NCBI GenBank assembly: GCA_015057875.1
Contig: SVDG01000002.1
Location: forward strand, 1 to 40,173
Direction: 5' to 3'
DNA length: 40,173 nt
Source of the DNA: Lachnospiraceae bacterium
GTDB lineage: Bacteria > Bacillota > Clostridia > Lachnospirales > Anaerotignaceae
A model generated the notes under the pieces. The model saw only the letters and a program-made list of their open reading frames with translations. It searched no databases and had not been told where the DNA came from. The stretch's first letter is position 1, and each line of letters starts with the position of its first letter. Made by a program: the position numbers and the translations under genes. Positions 5,529 to 10,128 of the stretch are shown piece after piece.

Positions 5529-7292
5529 ATGAAAAGCATTAAACTGAAGCTCATCATAATGTATCTTGCTCTCGTGCTCATAGTTATGATGGTAAGCGGA
5601 ACATATATCATCTTCAGTCTTAAGGCTTCTGAAATAGACAAGGCCCAGAACCAGATGCAGCTTTATTCCGAAAAAATAAGCGAGCAGGTAGTGCTGAGCT
5701 TTGAGGAAACACAGTTCCAGTCAGGTCTTGACCAGTTTTCAACGGCAGATTCAACATCAAGCCAGATACAGGGAAACATCATAGACCTTAACGGCACTAC
5801 CTTAGCCTCAACTTCAGAAGAAAGAACGCCCTACCAGCAGTATAAATATTCCGTTATAATGACAGCTATGGCAGGCGAAGCATCCTTTTCGACCGAAAGA
5901 GATGATTCCTCAATAGAATGGCTCAGATCAGCCTATCCCGTCGATATAAACGGCGAAGTAAAATATATAATTTTCTGCCAGATGGATGCAACCGAGATAA
6001 ATGATCATTTATCACAGACAGCTACAACTATCATTTTCTCATCCGTTCTTGCGCTTATACTCACAGCCTTTATGGGATATTTCTTTGCCCGCAGTCTTAC
6101 AGGCCCCATAGCCGCCCTTACAAGCAGAGCTAAGGAAATGGCAGAGGGTAACCTTTCCAACAGCGCTACGGTATACGCAAATGACGAGATAGGTCAGCTG
6201 ACCCACAGCTTCAACTTTATGGCCTCAGAGCTATCAAAGCATATAGCTGAAACAACAAAGGAGAAAAACCGTATCGAGATCATCCTCCACAATATGACAG
6301 ACGGTGTTATATCCTACAATAACCACGGAGAGCTTATGCTTTTTAATCCCGTCAGTATGGATCTGCTTGAGCTTAAGGAAATGATACCTACCCTTGATGA
6401 ATTTATATCATCCTACGATATAGACTCCAGCGTTTATCTTGATATGGGTAACGATTTCTTTAAAACAGCAGTATTCCCCGTAGGCAACAAATACGTTAAC
6501 GCAAGCTTTTCTCCCTATACCAACGAGAAAAACGAGTTTGCCGGCGTTATCGTTGTTCTTCAGGATATAACAGAGCAGAAAAAACTTGACGATATGCGTA
6601 AGGAGTTCGTAGCCAACGTTAGCCACGAGCTGCGCACGCCATTGACCACAATAAAAAGCTATACAGAAACTCTTATAGACGGGGCCATTGATGAAAGAGG
6701 TATTGCCCTCGATTTCCTCGATATCATAAACAGCGAGGCAGACCGTATGGCCTTCCTTGTAAGAGACCTTCTCCAGCTTTCAAGACTTGATAACAATCAG
6801 TACACTCTTAACCTTTCAAGGTTTAACCTTAACGACCTTATAAACGAAAACATAAGGCAGAACAAAATACATGCGGAAAACAAGCATCAGTCACTCAGCT
6901 ACGTGCCCTTTGACAATGATGTATCCGTTACAGCCGACCGAGACAGGGTAACACAGGTAGTAAATAACCTTTTATCCAACGCCATCAAGTATAGTCCCGA
7001 ACAGGCAAAAATAGATATTTCAGTTTCCGAAGACAGCCGTTTCTATAAGATAACCGTAAAGGATACAGGTATGGGTATCTCCAAAGAAGACCTGCCCCGT
7101 ATCTTTGAGCGTTTCTATCGTGTAGATAAGGCAAGAAGCCGTGCTATGGGCGGTACAGGTCTCGGCCTTGCCATAGCCAAAAACATAATGGAAAGCCACG
7201 GCGGAACGATTACAGCCGAAAGCGAATATGGCAAAGGTACTGCTATGACGATCTGGCTTCCCAAAGAAACAACAGAAACACCCAAAAACTAA
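5529..7292 (+). CDS. walK: Sensor histidine kinase WalK/YycG-like (TM, extracellular domain, HAMP, PAS, HisKA, HATPase)
   Basis: FVANVSHELRTPLTTIKSYTETL H-box, VVNNLLSNAIKYSPE N-box, GTGLGLAIAKNI G-box; PAS segment ILHNMTDGVISYNNHGELMLFNP. Confidence 0.92.
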   Translation: MKSIKLKLIIMYLALVLIVMMVSGTYIIFSLKASEIDKAQNQMQLYSEKISEQVVLSFEETQFQSGLDQFSTADSTSSQIQGNIIDLNGTTLASTSEERTPYQQYKYSVIMTAMAGEASFSTERDDSSIEWLRSAYPVDINGEVKYIIFCQMDATEINDHLSQTATTIIFSSVLALILTAFMGYFFARSLTGPIAALTSRAKEMAEGNLSNSATVYANDEIGQLTHSFNFMASELSKHIAETTKEKNRIEIILHNMTDGVISYNNHGELMLFNPVSMDLLELKEMIPTLDEFISSYDIDSSVYLDMGNDFFKTAVFPVGNKYVNASFSPYTNEKNEFAGVIVVLQDITEQKKLDDMRKEFVANVSHELRTPLTTIKSYTETLIDGAIDERGIALDFLDIINSEADRMAFLVRDLLQLSRLDNNQYTLNLSRFNLNDLINENIRQNKIHAENKHQSLSYVPFDNDVSVTADRDRVTQVVNNLLSNAIKYSPEQAKIDISVSEDSRFYKITVKDTGMGISKEDLPRIFERFYRVDKARSRAMGGTGLGLAIAKNIMESHGGTITAESEYGKGTAMTIWLPKETTETPKN

Positions 7293-7293
7293 A

Positions 7294-7332
7294 TGTAATT
7301 TAAACGTAAGCCCCATGTAATACGGATGTAAT
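7294..7332 (+). promoter_or_regulatory. Putative tandem WalR/PhoB-type binding half-sites
   Basis: TGTAAT-ttaaa-CGTAAG-cccca-TGTAAT-acgga-TGTAAT: four half-sites at exact 11-bp period; the last pair matches the published WalR consensus TGTWAH-N5-TGTWAH. Confidence 0.65.
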
Positions 7333-7342
7333 AATAACAGTT

Positions 7343-7348
7343 TATAAT
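7343..7348 (+). promoter_or_regulatory. Predicted -10 element of the activated promoter
   Basis: TATAAT starting 10 bp after the last half-site; no independent -35. Confidence 0.5.
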
Positions 7349-7384
7349 AAAATTACTTATTATACCGTAAAGGAGGCTTGCGTT

Positions 7385-7831
7385 ATGAAAAAAATACCCA
7401 CATTGTTTATTACCCTTATCTGTACGATAGTTTTTGCTATATCCGTATACGCAAAGCCCCTCGATAGCTATACCATATCAGGCGGAATAGATTTCAGTAA
7501 GGAAAGCGAATCGACCTTTGATGAAAACAGAGTGATATCCGGCACGGCACCCTGCGGAACAAAGGTTTTAATAACCATCTCTAACTCAGACAGCGTCAAC
7601 ACCGAAGTATTTGAAATAACCGTAGGCGCATCGGGTATATTCAGCAAAACTCTTCGCCTTGATAATGGCGAAAATCAGGTAAGTGTTCTGCTTTCCCTTG
7701 ACGGATATGATACTGTTGAAAAAGGAACCGTAATAAACAAAAAAGACAATAAAATAAAACACACTCTCAAAAAAGGTATATGTATACCAGGAGAAGGCAT
7801 ATCTGGAGATATAGTTTTATTTTATTCATAA
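7385..7831 (+). CDS. Small secreted protein of unknown function, possibly Ig/bacterial-adhesin-like fold
   Basis: AAGGAGG RBS; N-terminal signal peptide (MKKIPTLFITLICTIVFAISVYA); beta-rich ...VISGTAPCGTKVLITISNSDS...GASGIFSKTLRLDNGENQVSVLL. Confidence 0.75.
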   Translation: MKKIPTLFITLICTIVFAISVYAKPLDSYTISGGIDFSKESESTFDENRVISGTAPCGTKVLITISNSDSVNTEVFEITVGASGIFSKTLRLDNGENQVSVLLSLDGYDTVEKGTVINKKDNKIKHTLKKGICIPGEGISGDIVLFYS

Positions 7832-9230: not shown

Positions 9231-10097
9231 TTGAACCTGAGCAGATCAAAAAAAATAATAATCCTTGTGCTTGTTATACTAAACATCGTTCTTCTTGCCC
9301 TGCGTGTAATGGATAAACCGGACTATACTCTCTCATCTGACAGAGAAAAAGCAGTATATGAAGTATTGGGTAAAAACAACATAGCCCTCTACACAGAGCT
9401 TTTAACAGGCTACGAACCTATGCAGCAGATACTTGTAAGCTCAACTGAGGCAAATGTAGAAAAAATACTGCCCGCCTTTTTCGACAGTACAGAAAATATG
9501 GAGATGACCATTGAATTCTCCAAAACCATATACAGCGATAAATACCGGATCCTTACTTTAGGCGAAAATACTCTGCTTTTTGAAGATTACACACCTACAG
9601 AAGAAATAGCTAACTACAGCTATAGTCAGGCAAGTAATACCGCCTCCAACTTCCGTGAGGTAATTATGGCCGCACTTAATTTCTCCAAAAATGTTGAGCT
9701 TGAAAAAAATCATTTCAAAAATGGGGAATATACTTTCCGTTACGTTGAAAGCTATAATAAGAGCAAACTTTTCTGCAACTACATTGATATAACAGTTAAA
9801 AACGGAAAAATACTCCGTGCAGAGGCCTCCCGTTACGGCGTGGACGGTTTTACAGGAAACAAACAGAACATAGCCGCACCCGATGAAATAATGCTTACAT
9901 TCCTTTATGAGCTTAAAAAGAATGACTTGTCCTACGGAATAATAATAACTGATATGGAAATAGGCTATGATTTCCAATCATCAGACGATATAGCAAGTGG
10001 CGATTCCCTGAGCCTTGTGCCCTTCTACCGCATATATATACAGGGTACAGATAAACCATTCACCATAAATGCCTATACAAATGAGTTTATAAACTAA
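9231..10097 (+). CDS. YycI-like regulatory protein (TTG start preferred over the upstream in-frame GTG)
   Basis: SRSKKIIILVLVILNIVLLALRV N-terminus is YycI-like; GAGGGGG RBS ~10 nt upstream of TTG at 9231. Confidence 0.65.
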   Translation: MNLSRSKKIIILVLVILNIVLLALRVMDKPDYTLSSDREKAVYEVLGKNNIALYTELLTGYEPMQQILVSSTEANVEKILPAFFDSTENMEMTIEFSKTIYSDKYRILTLGENTLLFEDYTPTEEIANYSYSQASNTASNFREVIMAALNFSKNVELEKNHFKNGEYTFRYVESYNKSKLFCNYIDITVKNGKILRAEASRYGVDGFTGNKQNIAAPDEIMLTFLYELKKNDLSYGIIITDMEIGYDFQSSDDIASGDSLSLVPFYRIYIQGTDKPFTINAYTNEFIN

Positions 10098-10128
10098 TAA
10101 AAACCACGCAAAAGCGTGGTTTTTATTT
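10098..10128. terminator. Bidirectional intrinsic terminator
   Basis: AAAAACCACGC-AAAA-GCGTGGTTTTT between convergent genes. Confidence 0.85.

Follow-up and report, generated by a model that had tools for sequence, protein, structure and literature searches.

Background

In most Bacillota the essential regulator of the cell wall is WalRK. B. subtilis and S. aureus have walRKHI operons, in which walH and walI (yycH and yycI) are cotranscribed with walRK (PMC7299342, PMC4801191). WalH and WalI inhibit WalK in B. subtilis (PMC7299342), their role in S. aureus differs from this (PMC4801191), and the title of a study cited in PMC10746227 refers to activation of WalRK by YycHI. The C. difficile operon is walA-walR-walK-truA2 (PMC9210968), for which reason work on that organism could not have revealed the circuit proposed here. 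In all three bacteria the wal operon is stated not to be autoregulated (PMC7299342, PMC4801191 and PMC9210968, respectively). The closest functional precedent for what follows is the WalKR-SpdC negative feedback of S. aureus (PMC5854430), in which the product of a WalKR-activated gene restrains WalK; that product, SpdC, is a membrane protein with an Abi domain and differs from YycHI.

The window analysed here (the whole stretch of DNA, 40,173 nucleotides) belongs to one contig in a draft genome assembly (1.46 Mb, 85% complete). Among named genomes, WalK has three close relatives, in Anaerotignum sp. MSJ-24 and Candidatus Metalachnospira; on these three records the family is probably Anaerotignaceae (Lachnospirales, Clostridia), and the clade names used below rest on them. 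Its wal locus has the same neighbours as those of B. subtilis and S. aureus, walR and walK, then yycH and yycI, but differs from them in having a separate predicted promoter and an extra gene for a secreted protein before yycHI (Table 1). The layout walRK-array-small gene-yycHI is that of none of the three described loci. The array of half-sites between walK and the small gene is very probably a class II promoter for a WalK accessory operon, activated by WalR~P, through which the wal locus would feed back on itself. Neither the motif nor the promoter type is new; their combination was not found in the open-access literature searched.

The array downstream of walK

Beginning 1 bp past the walK stop codon (7290-7292), with no terminator between, the sequence reads TGTAAT-N5-CGTAAG-N5-TGTAAT-N5-TGTAAT-N10-TATAAT. 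An earlier, sequence-only reading of the window had placed these hexamers in an 11-bp period and the -10 element 10 bp past the last of them; coordinates, period and gap are all correct on re-reading. It had also taken the last pair as an exact fit to the WalR consensus, TGTWAH-N5-TGTWAH, and had noticed no similar array elsewhere: the 7316/7327 pair proves to be the sole exact match in the 40 kb, and the next-best array of four hexamers at 11 bp has 5 mismatches vs 2 at 7294-7348. Its reading of the four hexamers needs one correction: the second, CGTAAG, has 2 mismatches to TGTWAH. Among 400 dinucleotide-preserving shuffles of the window, 2 get down to 2 mismatches over the four hexamers; when TATAAT is scored as well, none of the 400 equals the observed 2 mismatches, the best shuffle having 4. 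These shuffles, with the reversed-pattern controls given below, rule out local chance as the source of the array.

Table 1. Features of the wal locus and its predicted accessory operon (positions in the window)
Feature	Position	Strand	Basis or remark
walR (yycF), OmpR-family response regulator, 238 aa	4788..5504	+	Pfam Response_reg and Trans_reg_C
walK (yycG), sensor kinase, 587 aa	5529..7292	+	HAMP, HisKA and HATPase_c
Half-site 1, TGTAAT	7294..7299	+	Consensus TGTWAt across 64 loci
Half-site 2, CGTAAG	7305..7310	+	Kept as nGTAAg, off TGTWAH; 64 loci
Half-site 3, TGTAAT	7316..7321	+	Positions 2-5 invariant in 64 loci
Half-site 4, TGTAAT, then conserved 7th-position A	7327..7332	+	Positions 2-5 invariant in 64 loci
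-10 element TATAAT, without -35	7343..7348	+	Near invariant in 64 loci
Ribosome-binding site AAGGAGG	7370..7376	+	Read from sequence
Small secreted protein, 148 aa, tentatively Ig-like	7385..7831	+	Signal-peptide-like N terminus; first operon gene
yycH (walH)-like, 460 aa	7844..9226	+	Position and conserved small-yycH-yycI order
yycI (walI)-like, probable TTG start	9231..10097	+	Position and gene order in relatives
Intrinsic terminator closing the operon	10096..10127	+	14-bp stem, then T-rich tail

Comparison of 64 loci shows which parts of the array are kept. The GTAA core of half-sites 3 and 4 does not vary and the -10 element hardly does; the base 3' of half-site 4 is A in 60 of the 64, in agreement with the extended VicR consensus, TGTWAHA-N4-TGTWAHA (PMC4168254). 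Half-sites 3 and 4, this extra A included, fit the WalR/VicR sites of Bacillus, Staphylococcus and Streptococcus exactly. The described WalR/VicR consensus has two half-sites, in contrast to the four in register found here, the second of them divergent and the last set a constant 10 bp before the -10 element. The departure of half-site 2 from TGTWAH is shared by nearly all the relatives and counts against the WalR reading; the mismatch is not noise, since this hexamer is itself conserved (G in 58/64, T in 62/64 and A in 64/64 loci at its positions 2, 3 and 5), in the form nGTAAg within the order and mostly nTTAAn outside it. Two A residues are conserved in the first spacer, and the flanks of the array carry little information.

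No consensus promoter that would use the TATAAT at 7343 was found. When a -35 hexamer was sought at spacers of 15-19 bp, the best match was 2-3 of 6 bases in 60 of the 64 loci, and the -35 match in these loci is lower than in shuffled sequence. Phased half-sites that end about 10 bp before the -10 element, with no functional -35, are the class II geometry that had been suggested for this site. One alternative is that WalR binds the array and represses, the array being an operator laid over a weak promoter; B. subtilis WalR does repress some genes, iseA and pdaC (PMC4478028). This is very improbable, because the sites stop 10 bp short of a near-perfect -10 element at a spacing that does not vary, and because no -35 is present, matches to one being even poorer than in shuffled sequence; all of this suits activation. 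That the strong TATAAT makes the promoter constitutive or otherwise regulated, the repeats serving some other role such as DNA bending, is extremely improbable, given that there is no -35 to support constitutive firing and that register-locked TGTAAY copies are conserved base by base over class-level distance.

Distribution

The array follows walK, with identical phasing and spacing to the -10 element, in 28 of the 33 loci examined in the family, where WalK orthologs from other genera are 53-62% identical. Of the remaining five, two (G014 and G013) carry the array elsewhere, before the small-yycHI operon, one (G015) has neither small gene nor array, and in two (G023 and G027) walK has other neighbours. 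Loss of the 11-bp phasing in close relatives had been named as an outcome that would count against a regulator array; phasing and -10 spacing are conserved.

Genomes were also searched with the full pattern, allowing up to 3 mismatches and using the reversed pattern as control. The pattern occurs in 65/146 genomes of the order, vs one reversed-pattern match; 52 of the 146 have it no more than 500 bp past walK. In the class-level set 100/291 genomes have a match, vs 2 control hits, although some matches at 3 mismatches, such as 11 in one genome (G368), are surely chance or repeats. Beyond the order, the class adds 61 genomes in which the array directly follows walK. Of 27 loci from outside the order that were inspected with flanks of 1.5 kb, most show a recognisable small gene behind the array and, usually, yycH behind that gene. 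The predicted promoter element is found in a large part of the class Clostridia, an extent that the sequence-only reading underestimated because it was confined to one genome.

The position of the array so close to walK might make it seem a part of the 3' end of that gene. That notion is rejected: in 13 genomes of the order (G014, G013, G046, G139, G096, G124, G106, G160, G146, G107, G090, G071 and G057) the small-yycHI cluster does not adjoin walK, or belongs to a different contig, yet still has the array at its head. The same is seen in 10 further genomes outside the order (walK of one, G340, was not located). Separate contigs of draft assemblies do not prove distance, but in G014 a single contig carries both, with about 15 kb between them. 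The array stays with the small-yycH-yycI operon when the locus splits, as befits the promoter for these genes that it had been proposed to be. In the set of loci that have yycH or the small gene, array and small gene occur together in 64, the array next to the small gene has decayed in two, and 14 show neither; no locus has an array where the small gene is missing. Put otherwise, the array is present in 64 of the 66 loci with the small gene and absent from all 14 yycH loci that lack it. Since the loci were partly chosen by the array and are not independent, these counts describe rather than test the association.

The regulator

The walR product has YycF as its best NCBIfam model (E 6e-99, 330 bits vs a cut-off of 340), and that of walK has WalK (E 8e-151, under the curated cut-off). 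The recognition helix of the former, GDVRTVDVTVRRLREK, is identical to those of the solved B. subtilis YycF and Enterococcus VicR. The helices of two other response regulators read from the genome are DVHVRRLR and DVHIKRIR.

The rival that survives best, though it is quite improbable, is that the array serves a different regulator of the OmpR/PhoB family, the phosphate regulator PhoB/PhoP being the most plausible candidate. The four repeats recall B. subtilis PhoP promoters. Direct repeats of 11 bp over the -35 position are the hallmark of PhoB-type promoters (PMC4415409, PMC3348028), class II promoters in which, as in the array, the repeats replace the -35 beside a -10 element. The genome also encodes two or more further Trans_reg_C regulators with adjacent kinases. 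However, the half-site is not that of a Pho box: 9 of 13 pstS promoters in the family have TTTACA-N5-TTWACW, not TGTAAY, and a Pho-box reading of the array is rejected on these grounds. (Upstream of pstS, in L237-L248, this box is often followed by further TTAACA-like copies.) Also against a phosphate regulator, the array is bound to the operon of WalK partners, and genomes of the order without a clear WalK ortholog have no array before that operon. There are 31 such genomes, defined by a best WalK hit weaker than E 1e-90; 29 of them have no array, and in the two exceptions it is not before the small-yycHI operon. Finally, extra copies of the array precede cell-wall amidases, as described below. 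Because of the helix, the distinct Pho half-site, the co-occurrence with WalK and the amidase copies, WalR appears by far the likeliest binder of the array. A weaker array is found just after an ftsH-like gene in two genomes whose WalK match is only partial (L205 and L206), where it precedes the gene of a secreted protein with a copper-amine-oxidase-like domain.

The accessory operon and the proposed circuit

The small gene is kept before yycH across the order and beyond. Its product matches no Pfam or NCBIfam family above cut-off, Glucodextran_B and Big_6 of Pfam being sub-threshold; the AlphaFold model is mainly beta (pLDDT 66), and fold searches return only weak beta-sandwich or Ig-like matches. 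The model being of low confidence and the fold matches weak, the label "Ig-like" is tentative. The protein looks like an undescribed component of the Wal system. The yycH-like and yycI-like products have no significant match in Pfam or NCBIfam, and are so named because of their position and the conserved gene order.

Binding of the array by WalR and activation from it are what we infer from these comparisons. WalR~P, from the walR gene 2 kb upstream, would bind head to tail as two dimers on the four half-sites, cover about -61 to -23 and substitute for the missing -35, contacting sigma-A and recruiting the sigma-A polymerase to TATAAT. Transcripts would start near 7355, run through the genes for the small secreted protein, YycH and YycI and end at 10096-10127. 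WalR would govern how much of WalK's membrane partners is made, apart from walRK itself, and a feedback loop inside the wal locus would result; it would be a negative one if, as in B. subtilis, YycHI act as inhibitors of WalK. Transcription of walRK may run on into the operon and probably adds a basal level, there being no terminator before the array. Such read-through counts against the model, as do the reported lack of autoregulation in wal operons and the small number of convincing WalR-type sites elsewhere in the genome. The overall interpretation offered by the sequence-only reading is supported, each prediction of it that could be put to sequences having come out as proposed.

The wide distribution of the array suggests that many Clostridia run a WalR-type control of the accessory operon. 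A bolder version gives WalR's strongest, and often only, full-array promoter to the partners of WalK, including a secreted Ig-like surface component of the sensor complex, and sees in this a homeostat common to the class Clostridia; the chances of its being right seem to us about even. If it is, WalR output would tune how much WalK-YycHI complex there is and, with it, the set point of cell-wall hydrolysis, in contradiction to the rule drawn from B. subtilis. The array offers one defined 55-bp element on which WalR control of the accessory operon can be tested, and a highly specific motif with which WalR targets could be mapped in gut Clostridia; the unstudied secreted protein is a likely new Wal component.

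Array-like promoters at other genes

Cell-wall hydrolases and amidases are typical WalR targets. Further copies of the array stand, in one family outside the order, before Amidase_3 genes (L304 at 480 and L305 at 433), which encode N-acetylmuramoyl-L-alanine amidases with AMIN and copper-amine-oxidase-like domains. A related array precedes the genes of large secreted NAGPA-domain proteins in another family outside the order (L299-L302).

In the genome from which the window comes, TGTWAH-N5-TGTWAH has 28 matches vs 13 for the reversed control, many of them intragenic and with a mixed set of genes downstream; no clear cell-wall hydrolase lies downstream of these matches and few WalR-type sites are convincing. 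With 28 matches vs 13, a WalR regulon drawn up from them would be suggestive at best. Some TGTWAH pairs do lie upstream of genes for secreted or membrane proteins and are possible further WalR targets (G000:C62:22347, L018; G000:C10:5433, L008; G000:C37:20832, L011).

Two other occurrences stand apart. The 11 matches in G368, a 1.4-Mb genome, are TGTAAY repeats at 11-bp spacing scattered over many of its contigs; a dispersed repeat or else a large regulon may account for them. In three species of genus g13 a second, near-perfect array precedes a short ORF that starts MNFEKVVINSLCDMLISSRVF; it lies at 1568 in L175, 582 in L209 and 585 in L210, the last two being reverse-complemented.
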